64,000 nt of DNA from Granulicella paludicola (GTDB taxonomy: Bacteria; Acidobacteriota; Terriglobia; Terriglobales; Acidobacteriaceae). Under the pieces are notes generated by a model. That model did not search any database, was not told where the DNA came from, and worked only from the letters and a program-made list of their open reading frames with translations. The translations under genes and the position numbers were made by a program. Numbering within the stretch: the stretch's first letter is position 1; every line of letters starts with the position of its first letter. The stretch spans positions 248,001 through 312,000 of the forward strand of contig NZ_JAGSYC010000021.1 in the NCBI RefSeq assembly GCF_025685545.1, in the 5' to 3' direction. This document shows positions 49,571 through 61,863 of the stretch, piece after piece.

Positions 49571-52500
49571 TTACGCCTGCGGCTTCGGAGTAAACAGCAC
49601 AAACTTCGCCGACTCCGACTCCCAGTTCGCCAGCAACTGCTTGCCCAGCGAGCTGTGCGCCAGCTCGACATGCTCCGCGATCAGCGCCTTCAACGACGCC
49701 TGCTTCTCCGCCGCAACCTCGGCAAACGGCTGAGCCTCAAGGAACTCCGTGTGATACAGCGTCTCTGAGATCATCGTCTGCTTCGTGTCATAGATCCACG
49801 CCAGACCACCGGTCATACCCGCGCCGAAGTTGATGCCCACTTCGCCGAGGATCGTCACCACGCCGCCGGTCATGTACTCGCAGGCATGGTCCCCCACACC
49901 TTCAATTACTGCCGTCACGCCCGAGTTCCGCACCGCGAACCGCTCGCCCGCGCGTCCCGCCGCGAACAACCGCCCCGCCGTCGCACCATACAGCGCCACG
50001 TTGCCCAGCAGCACATGCTCCCAGCTGTTATGAGCCGCACGGCCTTCCGCACGCAGGATCAAATCAGCGCCCGACAGTCCCTTACCGACGAAGTCGTTCG
50101 CCTGCCCGGTCAGGATCAGCTTCATCCCCGTGCCGGCGAATGCGCCGAAGCTCTGTCCGGCGATGCCATGCAGATCGAACGTCACATCCGCATCGCCGAT
50201 CTCGCCCTTCATCCTCAGCACCGAAAGCTCACCGCTCAGCCGCGCACCAACCGCACGATGCTCGTTCGTGATCTCGCTCTTCACCACGTAGGGCTCTTGC
50301 TTCTTTGCAGCCTCAATTGCAGGTGCCGTCCACGGCTCATCCAGCGGGCTATCGACACCCGGTCGAACGTTCTTCACGCCCGTCCAGTGCAGCGGGCCTT
50401 CGCCAATCTGCGACAGCACCGGAGTCAGGTCGAGGTTCCCATCGAAGCGTACCTGCTCCAGCAGATCGACGCGGCCAATCGCCGCCTCGAGGCTCGGCAG
50501 ACCGAACTTCGCCAGCAGCTTCTGCAGATCAGCAGCCAGCTCATGGAAGAACGTCACCACGTGCTCCGGCTTGCCGCGGAACTTCGCGCGCAGATCTTCG
50601 CGCTGCGTCGCAATCCCCGTCGGGCAGGTATTCAGATGGCACTGACGCGCCATATCGCAGCCCAGCGCCACCAGCACAGCCGTTCCGAACGCATACTCGT
50701 CGGCACCCAGCAACGCAGCCACCAGCACATCCCGCGCCGTCGAGATGCCGCCATCCGTCCGCAGACGCACACGGTCGCGCATCCCATTCGCACGCAGACA
50801 TTGCTGCGCCTCGCTCAATCCAAGCTCCCACGGGTTGCCCGCGTACTTGATGCTCGAAAGCGCCGCCGCACCCGTGCCGCCATTATTGCCCGCGACCACG
50901 ATAAAATCCGCATACGCCTTCGCGACACCTGCAGCGACCGTGCCCACACCGCACCCCGAAACCAGCTTCACACCGACAGACGCCTTCGGATTCACGCGCT
51001 TCAGGTCATAGATCAGCTGCGCGAGATCTTCAATCGAGTAGATGTCATGATGCGGCGGCGGCGAGATCAAACTCACTCCCGGCTGCGCATGACGCAACCG
51101 CGCAATCAGCCCCGAAACCTTGTGCCCCGGCAGCTGTCCACCTTCACCAGGCTTGGCTCCCTGCGCCACCTTGATCTCGATCTCCTCCGCGTGCGCCAGA
51201 TACTCCGCCGTCACACCGAAGCGACCTGAAGCAATCTGCTTGATCTTGTTATTCAGGTTGTAGTGGATCGCAGGCGCACTCACGAGTTCCGCGACGGCAG
51301 CACCGCCGCCAGTCTCCAGGTGCCCCATCTTCGCGACGGCCTTATCGTCGCTAAGGTGGGAAGGCATACCGCCCGGCCCAGAACCTTGCGGCTTGTAAAC
51401 GTCACGATCCTCGCCACCCTCACCCGTATTCGACCGAGCGCCGAGCTGATTCATCGCAGCCGTAATCGTCTGGTGCGCCTCCGGGCTTAGCGAACCAAGG
51501 CTCATCGCACTCGCAATGAACTTCGTGCACAGGCTCTCCGGCTTCTCCACCTCATCCAGCGACAACTCCTCACCCGCCGGTCGAATCTCCAGCAGATCAC
51601 GCAGCGTCACCGTCTCGCGTGCATCCATGTTGCGACTGAAGATCTGGAACGCGCTTGCCGGATCTGTCGAGGCAGCCACGCCACGCGCGCTGCCTACCAC
51701 CGTCTGCAACGCCTTCACCGTCGGCGGCTGCCACGAATGCGGCTCAGCGCCTTCGGTCTTTCGGAAGCGGACCCAGCCAAAGTCCGGCAGCGCGGCGACC
51801 TCTTCCGCAGACAACCAGCTCAAGCGCAGGCGCCGATCCAGCTCTGAAAATCCAATGCCCGAAAGCGGCGCAGGCGTATTCGGGAAGCACCGCTCCACCA
51901 CACTCTTATGCAGACCCAGAATGTCGAACTGGTGCGCGCCACGGTAGCTGTCCAGCACCGAGATACCCATCTTCGACATCACCTTCGCCAGCCCGGCATC
52001 AAGTGCCTTCAGCATCAGCGTTTCGCCGTCGACACCCTCAGGCTGCAGCGACTTCGCCGTCTCCAGCGCCAGCCACGGACAAACCGCTCCGACGCCATAG
52101 CCAACGAGTACCGCGGCATGATGAATATCGCGACAGTCTCCAGCCTCCACGGCAATGCCCGTCAGCGTGCGCAGACCGGCATCCACCAGCGCCTGATGCA
52201 CCGCACCGGCCGCCATCGCCATCGGTATCGGCAGCAGCGTCGCACTCGCAGAACGGTCCGTCATCAGCAGCAGTCGAGCACCATTGCGCACCAACTCGAC
52301 CGACTGACGGCAGAGATTATCGAGCGCCTGCACCAGCGTAAAGTTCGGAGCGAACACACACGGCAGCTCTTCCAGTCGCAGCGAATCCGCATGCGGATAC
52401 GTCTTCGCACGCAGCGCAGCCATCTGCCCCAATGAAAGAAACACAGACTTCAGCGCGATACCCGGCAGCGGAGCGTTCTTATCCAGCAGATGCGCCCACG

Positions 52501-54193
52501 GACCAAAGCGCGTGCTCATCTTCACCACCACAGCTTCGCGCAGCGGATCGATCGCAGGGTTCGTCACCTGCGCAAATCGCTGCCGGAAGTACGCATACAG
52601 CGGTCGCGGGCTCTTCGCCAGGAACGCCAGCGGTGTGTCATCCCCCATGGACCACACCGCGTCCTTACCCGTTGCAGCCATCGGCTGCAGAATCATCTTC
52701 AGATCTTCCTGCGAGTAGCCAAAACCCTTATGCAGGTGGCTCAGATCGCCTGCAGGCTCGACTTCGAGCGGCAGCAGCGGAGTGTCCTCCACCAGCTTCG
52801 CGTACGTTGCCTTCGCGTCGAACGCATGCAGCATCTCTTCATTGTGATAGATCGCGTGCTCGTCCATATCGAGCGCAATCATCTGTCCCGGACCAAGCCG
52901 TCCGCTCTCCAGCACGGTGCCCGGATCGAGATCGACCAGGCCAGCCTCGCTGCCTGCCACCACAATGCCATCGGTCGTGATTGCATATCGACAAGGCCGC
53001 AGACCATTGCGATCCAACGCAGCTCCCACAGCCACACCATCCGAGTACGCAATCGCCGCAGGTCCATCCCACGGCTCCGTGCAACCGGAGTGATATTGCA
53101 GGAACGGGCTCTCGTAATGCACCGTCGCACGAGCAGGCGGCAGCAGCATACGTACACTCTCGGAGATCGTGCGGCCATTCTGACTGATCATCTCGATCGT
53201 CTCGTCAAGGCTCGTCGAATCCGTTCCGTCCTTCGTCAACACCGGCTTGCACTCCACCGGAAGCGTGAAGTCGCGCGCCGCCATGCGGCTGCGGTTTCCC
53301 CACACGGTGTTGATCTCGCCGTTATGCCCCAGCTTGCGGCCCGGCTGCGCTCGATGCCACGCGGGCGTCGTGTTCGTCGCATAGCGCTGATGGAACAGCG
53401 CGAACCGCGTCACATAGCTCGGATCAGCCAGATCCGGATAGAACTGCGGCAGCAGCGTGCCCATGCACATCGACTTATAGACCAGCGTCGTCGTCGACAT
53501 CGAACAGACGTAGCCCGTCACCTCGCCCAGCTCTACCGCACGCTCGAACTGCTTGCGTGCCATGTACAGCCGACGTTCCATGCACTCTTCGTACTCCGGC
53601 GACTGCGGATCAGGCATCGTCACCTTCGGATACTGATTGCCAGCCTTCGGCTCCCGCGCATCCGCCACCAGCACCTGCCGAATCTTCGGCATGGTGCTCA
53701 ACGCAATCTCACCCAGCACCTCGGGCCGCACCGGCACATCGCGCCAGGCTAGCACCGTCAACCCCTGCGATCGCAGCGAGCTCTCGATCACCGCCTCGGC
53801 CCGCATCTCTTCCTTGGGCAGAAAGATCATGCCCACGCCCAGCGGCGCATCGTCGGCGAGCGTTACACCGGTAGACTTCAACAGCAGTGCCCTCGGCACG
53901 CTCGTCATCACACCGATGCCGTCCGAGCTGGCTCCGTCCGCAGCCACAGCTCCGCGATGCGCCAGGCGCACCAGCGCCGTCAGCGCGTCTTCCAGAATTT
54001 TATGGCTGTATTTGCCAAGCACCGACGCCACAAACCCTACGCCGCACGAGTCATGGTCAAACCGGGCGTCCACCAGCGTCGGTTCGTCCGAATGAAGCAG
54101 GTCAACGGGAAGCCCCGTCGAGTCGGTCCTGTACTGCTTCTCCACAACACGCTTGGTCGCAGCGTGTCCGTTCTTGGCAAAATTATGGGACAT
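49571..54193 (-). CDS. gltB: Glutamate synthase large subunit
   Basis: The 1540-residue protein has a 49-residue propeptide before HDSCGVGFVA (Cys50 becomes the N-terminal nucleophile of the glutamine amidotransferase domain). A central domain, an FMN-binding synthase domain (GRFGVTAEYLAHAEEIEIKV in part: AEEIEIKVAQGAKPGEGG, then VAGNNGGTGAA), the 3Fe-4S cluster segment CDMARQCHLNTCPTGIA and a C-terminal GXGXG beta-helix domain follow. It makes two glutamates from glutamine and 2-oxoglutarate. The small subunit gene gltD is not adjacent. It is divergent from the arginine operon. Confidence 0.93.
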   Translation of the reverse strand: MSHNFAKNGHAATKRVVEKQYRTDSTGLPVDLLHSDEPTLVDARFDHDSCGVGFVASVLGKYSHKILEDALTALVRLAHRGAVAADGASSDGIGVMTSVPRALLLKSTGVTLADDAPLGVGMIFLPKEEMRAEAVIESSLRSQGLTVLAWRDVPVRPEVLGEIALSTMPKIRQVLVADAREPKAGNQYPKVTMPDPQSPEYEECMERRLYMARKQFERAVELGEVTGYVCSMSTTTLVYKSMCMGTLLPQFYPDLADPSYVTRFALFHQRYATNTTPAWHRAQPGRKLGHNGEINTVWGNRSRMAARDFTLPVECKPVLTKDGTDSTSLDETIEMISQNGRTISESVRMLLPPARATVHYESPFLQYHSGCTEPWDGPAAIAYSDGVAVGAALDRNGLRPCRYAITTDGIVVAGSEAGLVDLDPGTVLESGRLGPGQMIALDMDEHAIYHNEEMLHAFDAKATYAKLVEDTPLLPLEVEPAGDLSHLHKGFGYSQEDLKMILQPMAATGKDAVWSMGDDTPLAFLAKSPRPLYAYFRQRFAQVTNPAIDPLREAVVVKMSTRFGPWAHLLDKNAPLPGIALKSVFLSLGQMAALRAKTYPHADSLRLEELPCVFAPNFTLVQALDNLCRQSVELVRNGARLLLMTDRSASATLLPIPMAMAAGAVHQALVDAGLRTLTGIAVEAGDCRDIHHAAVLVGYGVGAVCPWLALETAKSLQPEGVDGETLMLKALDAGLAKVMSKMGISVLDSYRGAHQFDILGLHKSVVERCFPNTPAPLSGIGFSELDRRLRLSWLSAEEVAALPDFGWVRFRKTEGAEPHSWQPPTVKALQTVVGSARGVAASTDPASAFQIFSRNMDARETVTLRDLLEIRPAGEELSLDEVEKPESLCTKFIASAMSLGSLSPEAHQTITAAMNQLGARSNTGEGGEDRDVYKPQGSGPGGMPSHLSDDKAVAKMGHLETGGGAAVAELVSAPAIHYNLNNKIKQIASGRFGVTAEYLAHAEEIEIKVAQGAKPGEGGQLPGHKVSGLIARLRHAQPGVSLISPPPHHDIYSIEDLAQLIYDLKRVNPKASVGVKLVSGCGVGTVAAGVAKAYADFIVVAGNNGGTGAAALSSIKYAGNPWELGLSEAQQCLRANGMRDRVRLRTDGGISTARDVLVAALLGADEYAFGTAVLVALGCDMARQCHLNTCPTGIATQREDLRAKFRGKPEHVVTFFHELAADLQKLLAKFGLPSLEAAIGRVDLLEQVRFDGNLDLTPVLSQIGEGPLHWTGVKNVRPGVDSPLDEPWTAPAIEAAKKQEPYVVKSEITNEHRAVGARLSGELSVLRMKGEIGDADVTFDLHGIAGQSFGAFAGTGMKLILTGQANDFVGKGLSGADLILRAEGRAAHNSWEHVLLGNVALYGATAGRLFAAGRAGERFAVRNSGVTAVIEGVGDHACEYMTGGVVTILGEVGINFGAGMTGGLAWIYDTKQTMISETLYHTEFLEAQPFAEVAAEKQASLKALIAEHVELAHSSLGKQLLANWESESAKFVLFTPKPQA

Positions 54194-54291
54194 AGCTAAC
54201 TATACTTCCGTTTCTCGGGAGATTCAGGGCGTCGCGGCCCCTCTCCCCGTGAAATATTGCTAATCCGCGGACCCATAAGACCGGTCCGCCC

Positions 54292-54320
54292 AACATAGGC
54301 TGCTGATCCAGCCTTGACAA
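54292..54320 (-). promoter_or_regulatory. Predicted gltB promoter sharing its -35 with the arg promoter
   Basis: Read on the minus strand, TTGTCA (54320-54315) and TATGTT (54297-54292) are separated by 17 bp. The -35 overlaps the arg -35 within the palindrome CCTTGACAAGG (54312-54322). The predicted start of transcription is about 54285, leaving a leader of about 90 nt to the gltB ATG. Confidence 0.5.
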
Positions 54321-54342
54321 GGTGCTTTTGCATATTTATACA
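54314..54342 (+). promoter_or_regulatory. Predicted promoter of the arginine operon
   Basis: A consensus TTGACA (54314-54319) lies 17 bp before TATACA (54337-54342). The predicted transcription start is near 54349. The -10 is embedded in an ARG-box-like palindrome. Confidence 0.65.
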
Positions 54343-54365
54343 TGAGAAGTGGATTTTTATGCAGC
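54327..54365 (+). promoter_or_regulatory. Tandem ARG boxes (ArgR operator)
   Basis: Box 1 (54327-54344) contains the palindrome TGCATATTTATACA and box 2 (54348-54365) contains TGGATTTTTATGCA. Both match the ARG-box pattern of AT-rich half sites around TGNAT/ATNCA. Their centres (54335.5 and 54356.5) are 21 bp apart, that is two 18-bp boxes with a 3-bp gap, the geometry bound by one ArgR hexamer. They cover the -10 and the start site of the operon whose first gene is argR. Confidence 0.7.
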
Positions 54366-54396
54366 CTAGCCAACTCGGCAGGTTGAGGAAATCCAC
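54349..54396 (+). promoter_or_regulatory. 5' stem-loop of the arg leader
   Basis: GTGGATTT (54349-54356) and AAATCCAC (54389-54396) are perfect 8-bp complements. Inside them CCT-A-GCC and GGCAGG can pair with one bulged A. The stem begins at the predicted RNA 5' end and stops 2 nt before the terminator hairpin, so it is suited to compete with or guard that structure. Confidence 0.5.
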
Positions 54397-54457
54397 CCGT
54401 GGCGCTCTTTCGAGGCGTCACGTTTTTGTTTTCTTAATGCTTCCCGTGTCTCACTAA
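54359..54457 (+). CDS. Possible arginine-rich leader peptide of the arg operon
   Basis: An ATG in the leader opens 32 codons ending in TAA 10 nt before argR. Five residues are Arg (positions 8, 10, 14, 19, 20; codons AGG, AGG, CGT, AGG, CGT). The terminator hairpin lies inside codons 14-21. There is no good ribosome site, and the predicted 5' UTR is only about 10 nt, so translation would be near-leaderless. Read as an attenuation peptide it is attractive but unproven. Confidence 0.35.
   Translation: MQPSQLGRLRKSTRGALSRRHVFVFLMLPVSH
54399..54433 (+). terminator. Attenuator-like terminator in the arg leader
   Basis: GTGGCGC (54399-54405) and GCGTCAC (54415-54421) form a 7-bp stem with one G-U pair and a 9-nt loop, followed by GTTTTTGTTTTC. 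No gene on this strand ends upstream, so the element lies between the arg promoter and argR and is best explained as a transcription attenuator. Confidence 0.6.
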
Positions 54458-54466
54458 GAGTAATGC

Positions 54467-54904
54467 ATGAAAAGCCAACGACACAACGCGATCAAAGACC
54501 TGCTGGTGAAGACGACCATCACCAACCAGGACGAGCTGCGTAAGCACCTCGTGACCCGCGGCATTCAGGCCACGCAGGCCACGCTCTCGCGCGACATCCG
54601 CGAGCTCAAACTCGTCAAAGGCCCCAGCGGCTACGCTCTCCCCTCCAACGCCGACGGCGAAGACGACATGCCCGAAACCGCCTCCGTCCTGCGCGACTTC
54701 GGCATTGAAATCCGCCAGGCCCAGAATCTACTTGTCCTGCATACCACCATGGGCGGAGCTCAGCCCGTCGCTGCCTCGCTCGACTCCGAAGAGTGGGAGG
54801 AGATCGTCGGCACCATCGCCGGCGATAACGATGTCCTCATTATCTGCCCGGATAACCCGACCGCCGCCATCCTCAAGGCCAGAATCGAGTCCTACCTTGT
54901 CTAG
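54467..54904 (+). CDS. argR: Arginine repressor
   Basis: The 145-residue protein has the N-terminal winged helix (AIKDLLVKTTITNQDELRKH, then ATQATLSRDIRELKL). Its C-terminal hexamerisation and arginine-binding domain contains VLHTTMGGAQPVAASLD and GTIAGDNDVLIICPD, where the GT-x-AGDDT-type motif has N-D in place of D-T. It represses arginine synthesis when loaded with arginine and likely controls its own operon through the boxes upstream. AGAG lies before ATG 54467; argC follows after 1 nt. Confidence 0.93.
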   Translation: MKSQRHNAIKDLLVKTTITNQDELRKHLVTRGIQATQATLSRDIRELKLVKGPSGYALPSNADGEDDMPETASVLRDFGIEIRQAQNLLVLHTTMGGAQPVAASLDSEEWEEIVGTIAGDNDVLIICPDNPTAAILKARIESYLV

Positions 54905-59402: not shown

Positions 59403-59431
59403 TTTGTCATTTCCGAAGGGAATCTGCGTTT
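59403..59431 (+). repeat. Diverged dispersed repeat after argF
   Basis: TTTGTCATTTCCGAAGGG and AATCTGCGTTT resemble a shortened copy of the GTCATCCTGAGCG family. It lies between argF and the orphan gene. Confidence 0.45.
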
Positions 59432-59469
59432 CGCTCGGATTAGCAACGATGCATAAAGGTCTCTCAACT

Positions 59470-59961
59470 ATGGCGAAAGAACAAATTAGGAAGCAGATCT
59501 ACGATCTTTCCGCCCAAGACTTCTTGGAGCATCTGATCTGGGAGTTCTGCTCTGACGAAGAGGACGTCGAAGACCAAGACGAAGCAACTGTAAAGCCGTC
59601 TGAAGATCTCGAAGTTCCGGGTTACTCTCCGGGAGTTTACGTTGTCGCTGCAGACGTCACCTTTGGCAATGGAGCTCGCGGCGAAGGCTATCTCTACTCT
59701 GGCCCACCTGATGACATCAGTTGTGTGCAGCCGAACATCTTGCTGCCAACCGGCCAGGTGAACTTATGGCTTGGTCGCATGCAATACACAATCGAGTGGG
59801 ATGCTCGGGTGAGCAGCAGCATGAATCTTTTAGGACGCGATGAGGAATTGTTCCCCATGACGTTCGATACCAAAACTAACGTGAACGGCGCTCCACTCAA
59901 GGTGAAGGCTGAAGGCTTCCTAGCGTTGACCCCCGAGGGTCTCATAATCCGGATCTATTGA
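59470..59961 (+). CDS. Orphan soluble protein inside the arg operon, first cargo gene
   Basis: The 163-residue acidic protein begins AKEQIRKQIYDLSAQDFLEH and continues LIWEFCSDEEDVEDQDEATV. Later parts read PGVYVVAADVTFGNGARGEGY and FPMTFDTKTNVNG. It has no signal or membrane segment. The opening, with a W-E-F-x-x-D-E-E acidic block, resembles small immunity-like proteins found beside toxin genes, but I cannot assign a family. Codons are less C-ending than in argF and argG, which suggests a later arrival. AAAGG lies 12 nt before ATG 59470. Confidence 0.6.
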   Translation: MAKEQIRKQIYDLSAQDFLEHLIWEFCSDEEDVEDQDEATVKPSEDLEVPGYSPGVYVVAADVTFGNGARGEGYLYSGPPDDISCVQPNILLPTGQVNLWLGRMQYTIEWDARVSSSMNLLGRDEELFPMTFDTKTNVNGAPLKVKAEGFLALTPEGLIIRIY

Positions 59962-61398: not shown

Positions 61399-61863
61399 AT
61401 GGAGATCACGACCGAACAGCAAATGGAAACGGACTTTGATTGGTTCTGCGTTGATGATGAGGCCCAAATCGCACATTTCACAACTGCTGGATTCAAGCGC
61501 CTGCCCAATTCAGTTGTCGAAAGCATAGGAAATCAAGCAACGCTCCTCAACTACTTTGAACAAGAGCTTGTTCTTAGCTCTGAATACAAGGTTGACCCCG
61601 AACTCACAAGAGAGGTCAGCGATCCGACTGAGTGCTACTTAAAATCATTCGCCAGGATGGCGTGTCGCGGCTTGTACTCATTCGATATCGAGACCTATGC
61701 CAGCGAAAGGACAAATTACTTTCGCGTTGCGATACCGATAGCTCCCCTAAGTGCGGATGAATTGCCAAAGCCGATTCGTCAGATTCTCGAAAAAACGCGC
61801 TGGCGCGGAATACCATTCAATTTGCTCTCTCGTATTCCATACAAGAGCACTTTGGCTTTATAA
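61399..61863 (+). CDS. Orphan soluble protein inside the arg operon, second cargo gene
   Basis: The 154-residue protein starts EITTEQQMETDFDWFCVDDE and continues AQIAHFTTAGFKRLPNSVV. The D-W-F-x-V-D-x-x-x-x-I-A-x-F-T-T-A-G pattern is seen in small immunity-like proteins of bacterial polymorphic toxin loci; no toxin gene is visible here. It is much more AT-rich than its neighbours, with codons such as ACA, AAA and TTA. AAAGGAG sits just before ATG 61399, an excellent ribosome site. Function unknown. Confidence 0.6.
   Translation: MEITTEQQMETDFDWFCVDDEAQIAHFTTAGFKRLPNSVVESIGNQATLLNYFEQELVLSSEYKVDPELTREVSDPTECYLKSFARMACRGLYSFDIETYASERTNYFRVAIPIAPLSADELPKPIRQILEKTRWRGIPFNLLSRIPYKSTLAL

Follow-up and report, generated by a model that had tools for sequence, protein, structure and literature searches.

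In Granulicella paludicola the operon for arginine biosynthesis opens with the gene for its apparent repressor, argR, and between the predicted promoter and argR lies the anatomy of an intrinsic terminator, a GC-rich hairpin followed by a U-tract, conserved among relatives while its sequence changes. Judged from sequence, the terminator is very likely an attenuator element of the arg operon, given its presence in 16 of the 61 family genera sampled; it is conserved but clade-limited. We lean towards a promoter-proximal brake of roughly fixed strength that would act in series with ArgR repression and without a leader peptide. An earlier note on this DNA proposed double control, in which ArgR repression is joined by attenuation through a ribosome waiting at arginine codons of a leader ORF. 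The first half of that proposal stands, in that a terminator is present in addition to apparent ArgR repression; the second half does not, as neither a conserved leader ORF nor a competing fold was found.

The argR leader of Granulicella paludicola

The window, a stretch of 64,000 nucleotides, holds the gene order argR-argC-argB-argD-argF-argG-argH. The first gene of the operon, argR (arginine repressor; 54467-54904, + strand), matches PF01316 and PF02863 above their gathering cut-offs, and the genes downstream of it were assigned by Pfam. Two ORFs inside the operon (59404-59961, 185 aa, and 61399-61863, 154 aa) have no Pfam match at E values up to 1. On the other side, gltB, assigned by Pfam as the glutamate synthase large subunit (49571-54193, - strand), runs divergently from its start at 54193 and leaves 54194-54466 as the stretch between the two genes. 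No gene ends upstream of the hairpin, as the earlier note had seen, and with gltB divergent the terminator of an upstream gene is ruled out as its identity. The same holds in relatives: of 35 terminator-bearing loci whose flanks were examined, 31 have a divergent gltB, so that no upstream gene there needs a terminator, and the other four show no gltB within the available flank.

The predicted promoter consists of the -35 hexamer TTGACA (54314-54319, + strand) and the -10 hexamer TATACA (54337-54342), separated by 17 nt; an automatic promoter scan omits it, its -10 rule requiring a final T. The same scan, which thus also misses the main promoter, gives no second promoter downstream of the terminator, and in leaders whose argR start codon adjoins the hairpin and touches the U-tract there is no room for one. 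ARG box 1, TGCATATTTATACA (54329-54342, + strand), has the -10 hexamer as its last six bases and fits TGNATWWWWATNCA, which we take to be the ARG-box consensus. ARG box 2, TGGATTTTTATGCA (54350-54363, + strand), lies 21 bp from box 1, centre to centre, and covers the predicted start site, from which the RNA would begin near 54349-54350. Judged by this consensus, a pair of ARG boxes with centres about 21 bp apart across the argR promoter is the arrangement of an ArgR operator, and ArgR probably represses the operon through it. The earlier note had recognised promoter and hairpin and missed both boxes, which overlap the promoter and the first stem of the leader.

No other ARG-box pair was found in the 4.96-Mb assembly at two spacings and up to three mismatches, the pair in the window being the sole one. 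Single boxes with at most one mismatch number five genome-wide, of which the pair in the window accounts for two; a reversed control pattern gives four. By this measure ArgR seems to serve mainly the argRCBDFGH operon, with weaker or single boxes possible elsewhere. A search for the promoter-box pattern with zero mismatches in 396 genomes of the phylum, to which this family contributes 44, listed ten genomes, all ten within the family.

The terminator hairpin itself comprises nine pairs (54398-54422, + strand), with TTTTTGTTTT directly 3' of the stem and a U-tract, TTTTTGTTTTC, at 54423-54433 (+ strand). It is the hairpin that the earlier note placed at 54399-54421, between the arg promoter and argR, with its extent slightly enlarged. 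A simple terminator scan finds one site in the 2-kb region, where shuffles yield 1.3 on average (sd 1.4). The single site alone thus proves nothing, and the relatives lend it weight, through rule-positive leaders well above chance and covariation within the genus. The RNA 54349-54434 folds far better than its own shuffles (z -4.95; 0 of 200 equally good). Searches against Rfam found only a tRNA at gathering score across the window, and nothing with E up to 5 at 54300-54480; a riboswitch, T-box or other Rfam leader was accordingly rejected as its identity.

Upstream of the terminator, the 5'-terminal hairpin P1 (54349-54396, + strand; -23.1 kcal/mol, z -5.55) is built on the 8-bp stem that had been claimed at 54349-54356/54389-54396, which pairs perfectly (GTGGATTT/AAATCCAC) and extends inwards. 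Five of 48 terminator leaders carry a long spacer before the hairpin, and three of the five form P1: that of the window and those of L057 and L087. Both relatives retain the outer arms GTGGAT/ATCCAC around unrelated inner sequences, and the folding z ranges from -4.55 to -5.55 across the three (L057 and L087 being folded together with the terminator). Because the 5' arm of P1 is ARG box 2, the 3' arm could be an extra ARG half-site instead of an RNA stem. P1 and the terminator coexist and are not mutually exclusive; no antiterminator or competing fold was found.

Conservation of the terminator across the family

ArgR was found in 171 of 200 family genomes and in 25 of 28 genus genomes, 189 genomes in all with seven in both, and the leaders of 127 of the 189 genomes were examined; the copy L001 and the second argR copies L104 and L105 were left out, and a set from genus g35 was kept separate and analysed later. 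Fifty-five named loci were unused except L001, which has the same leader as L087. A terminator was scored when a single hairpin of -8 kcal/mol or better was followed by at least five T in the next eight bases, with three T in the first four. An ARG-box pair precedes argR in 125 of the 127 leaders, and in 57 of these 125 a TTGACA with at least five of six matches stands in the same register. Box 2 is followed by a hairpin and U-tract in 47 of the 57 leaders with this in-register promoter and in 3 of the 68 without it, the three over all leaders lacking it being L116, L120 and L143. The coupling in this first set has a Fisher p of 9e-21, uncorrected for relatedness; the species are related and the leader counts are not independent. 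The background of the rule is about 3.5%: 87 of 2500 dinucleotide shuffles pass it, as do 13 of 373 segments of real sequence that served as controls, taken from the same region antisense and from upstream on both strands.

The comparison of the hairpin in close relatives that the earlier note had called for thus favours it: 14 of the 16 terminator-bearing genera hold promoter and terminator in one locus, and covariation within the genus exceeds that of shuffles. The genus tally counts L087 by eye, since it fails the automatic tail rule with its T-run within the loop and a tail of ATTATTTATTT; it is not among the 47 of 57, and its genus, g1, counts as terminator-bearing with or without it. Three leader architectures can be told apart, namely box 2 followed by the hairpin, box 2 abutting the argR start, and leaders without an in-register -35, in which the terminator is mostly absent. 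In 37 of 49 leaders of the series L136-L185, a fitting start codon for argR adjoins ARG box 2 or overlaps with it, beginning anywhere from 3 bases before to 11 bases after the end of the box, which leaves no room for a leader there and suggests, by sequence, a leaderless argR mRNA. In loci both with and without the terminator, argR is followed by argC-argB and more arg genes up to the limit of the sequence; the exceptions are L206, one of 20 longer loci, where argR stands alone, and L065, with argB and no argC match. Two genomes of the genus (G158 and G201) carry a second argR copy (L104, L105), about 1.2 kb from an argD-like gene, and neither a good ARG-box pair nor a terminator was found before these copies.

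Where present, the hairpin keeps its place and its fold. In 43 of 48 leaders at most 25 bases separate its start from the 5' end of box 2, its mean pair probability is at least 0.8 in 47 of 48 (L131, 0.73), and at least five T stand in the eight bases after the stem in all 48, the tail being a selection criterion for all except L087. All 48 segments are distinct, each forming a hairpin (median -14.8 kcal/mol; chosen for pairing), and several pair types occur at each stem level, which, in hairpins selected by pairing, is variety and not proof. Eight leaders from genera g18, g34, g48 and g70 offer no apparent argR start codon except a TTG located 5-11 bases beyond the hairpin, so that argR mRNA must read through the terminator there.

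This variety bears on the proposal that the terminated transcript is an end in itself, a small RNA of about 50-85 bases under ArgR control. Promoter, operator and terminator do form a complete short transcription unit, and a small transcript of the carA 5' UTR has been proposed in Pseudomonas syringae, according to the accessible part of that report (PMC4997734). However, the hairpin sequence differs between genera and the unpaired leader is mostly operator, so that no conserved targeting sequence is evident, and we consider a small-RNA function improbable.

An alignment of 23 hairpins from the genus has 96.7% of its cells paired, L095 with its longer hairpin being excluded from it and from the test of stem conservation; slid alignment controls are far lower in pairing. 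The covariation score is 0.183 against a shuffle mean of 0.113, with 0 of 500 shuffles as high, and two stem pairs have two-sided changes, a number reached by 57 of 500 shuffles. The hairpins differ by A-U/G-U swaps and in loop length, a pattern that fits an RNA rather than a DNA operator. It has to be set against the idea that the hairpin is a 5'-UTR element of stability or translation, or the DNA operator of a second regulator, with termination incidental. Such an element would accord with three leaders in genera g59 and g9 (L107, L116 and L135), in which a GC-rich hairpin stands at the same place after box 2 with a weak or absent U-tract, L116 barely passing the rule. The operator version was rejected, variable loop length and tolerated G-U pairs being unsuited to a DNA palindrome, and the preference of hairpin plus U-tract for the argR side, well above controls that include the antisense strand, speaks against both versions, which together we regard as unlikely to be correct.

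The genus stem, GTGRC/GTCAC, is conserved to roughly the same degree as box 2 (0.87-0.90 for the arms, 0.84-0.85 for box 2 and 0.28-0.35 for the flanks; figures anchored on the motif itself and thereby inflated), and a core akin to CGYGRC/GYCRCG is visible by eye across several genera. A cross-genus alignment of 27 of the 48 leaders put the 5' arm in the wrong place, and no counts were taken from it. Conservation of the stem beyond the need of a fixed terminator is the best hint, from sequence, of a binding factor. It favours a conditional attenuator, in which a trans-acting protein, or a ribosome docking at the 5' end, would bind the nascent leader or hairpin and allow read-through on a metabolic signal, as does the short distance from the 5' end in most leaders. 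Against it stand the lack of any competing fold, Rfam family or candidate factor in the searches made, the two unmatched ORFs of the operon (185 and 154 aa) included. A conditional attenuator of this kind seems to us a possible though minority account. The narrower version, in which a sequence-specific and possibly arginine-responsive factor acts on a hairpin that in most relatives lies only some 20 bases from the start of the transcript, again with no leader peptide, is more doubtful still.

Promoters without a terminator

The prediction drawn from the first set, that the promoter implies the terminator, failed in genus g35. Of 62 loci, three duplicates were dropped and two (L291 and L292) had no argR match, leaving 57 distinct leaders; by pattern the promoter occurs in 11 of 62 genomes, 14 leaders pass the -35 rule with 0 of 14 having a terminator, and 43 have neither, seven of which were already in the first set. 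Nine further leaders of the family have the promoter without the terminator (three in g32, two in g59, two in g55, one in g63 and one in g20). Strict coupling of promoter and terminator is therefore ruled out, and the promoter can do without the brake. Several g35 leaders (L066, L067, L258, L261, L263, L265, L266, L267 and L274) have a TTGACGACTTA stretch in the interval from the ARG boxes to argR, possibly as part of the promoter used in that genus.

The proposed arginine leader peptide

The 32-codon ORF with five Arg codons claimed for the leader is present (54359-54457, + strand; translation MQPSQLGRLRKSTRGALSRRHVFVFLMLPVSH; Arg at codons 8, 10, 14, 19 and 20), and is judged to be no working gene. 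Its start ATG lies inside ARG box 2 (TTTATGCA), no ribosome site precedes it in the predicted RNA, as had been conceded, and its AUG falls in a loop of the -23 kcal/mol 5' hairpin; P1 would be expected to hinder ribosome loading, not to help it. The window alone places three Arg codons ahead of the hairpin loop, and two are AGG, a codon that is rare here (4 of 211 Arg codons in eight window genes). The two AGG codons could suit a stalling site but equally a non-coding stretch.

Comparison with relatives, proposed at the outset as a check on Arg codons and ORF length, shows neither to be conserved, even in the two other leaders with two hairpins: read from the same ATG, the L057 frame reaches the loop without an Arg codon and the L087 frame meets one, within the 5' arm of the hairpin. 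Among 49 leaders checked (47 by rule, L087 and L120), an ATG-started frame through the hairpin is present in 35 and absent in 14, four of the 49 (L061, L098, L126 and L120) having no ATG at all before the hairpin and others, such as L058, L083, L094 and L108, having frames that end before the hairpin does. Arg codons show no preference for any of the three frames (75/452, 75/436 and 69/425, in the 41 of 48 leaders having an ATG). The box 2 ATG, found in 40 of 47 terminator leaders, is also present in 13 of 21 leaders without promoter and terminator (up to L135) and in 6 of 8 with the promoter only. In one g18 genome (L074) it is in frame with argR through the hairpin and could yield a longer ArgR product.

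Of the features of a ribosome-mediated attenuator of the trp/his type, the leader thus has the terminator and lacks a conserved leader ORF, Arg enrichment and an antiterminator. The model in which a ribosome waiting at codons 8-14 blocks termination is not supported, the ORF and Arg codons being unconserved and no antiterminator having been found; the arginine leader peptide was rejected after tests of conservation, frame and fold, the arginine-sensing mini-gene is probably not real, and we give attenuation by such a peptide very little credence.

A probable brake in series with ArgR

When ArgR is off, RNA polymerase would start within ARG box 2, make a leader of about 80 bases and then meet a strong terminator, and only the fraction reading through would yield operon mRNA. 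Such a brake, most likely not specific to arginine and presumably unregulated, would lower and smooth the output of a near-consensus promoter that would also drive its own repressor gene, argR. A fixed brake is favoured by the first-set coupling of promoter and terminator, the covariation within the genus, the read-through needed in eight leaders, and the close placement and high pair probability of the hairpin in nearly all. Against it, a weaker -35 would lower output more simply, the 14 g35 leaders and nine others have the promoter without the terminator, and the genus stem is, on its inflated figures, more conserved than a fixed terminator requires. On balance a brake of roughly fixed strength is still the reading to which we incline.

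Relation to known systems

ArgR/AhrC represses its own gene through two tandem ARG boxes over the argR promoter. The leaders described here share the tandem boxes and differ in the terminator close behind them and in the genome, which has no other box pair under the search above. In Escherichia coli the trp operon combines TrpR repression with leader attenuation. As in the accessible account of trp (PMC13178558), an amino-acid operon here has repressor-controlled initiation and a leader terminator in series, but the argR leader has no conserved leader peptide, regulatory codons or antiterminator fold, and here the operon opens with the gene for the repressor. For carAB of Pseudomonas, the accessible text of PMC4997734 describes a leader peptide in P. 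aeruginosa and, in P. syringae, a small leader transcript with no evident peptide. The likeness lies in an arginine-controlled gene (carAB serves arginine and pyrimidine synthesis) with proposed 5' UTR attenuation and one species without a leader ORF (PMC4997734), whereas gene and phylum differ and carAB attenuation is tied to pyrimidines in that account.

The available part of Naville and Gautheret 2010 (PMC2965389) reports almost no predicted Acidobacteria attenuators with an associated function; the argR terminator is a probable attenuator in the same phylum. Among the titles and abstract openings of the open-access papers searched none concerns a terminator before argR in Acidobacteria, and the accessible portions of PMC6001011, PMC8632094 and PMC3223726 contain nothing on the arrangement of promoter, ARG box and terminator before argR.

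Implications

If a factor does work the hairpin, the arginine operon has two independent controls, ArgR at initiation and early termination behind it. A 2026 study reports, in its accessible part, that attenuation together with regulated initiation alters the bursting of the trp operon (PMC13178558), and the argR leader would be a natural further test case. The terminator, common to many genera and absent from related ones, sits on what appears to be a single-operon arginine regulon, so that a comparison of similar promoters with and without it would show what an early terminator adds to a repressor.
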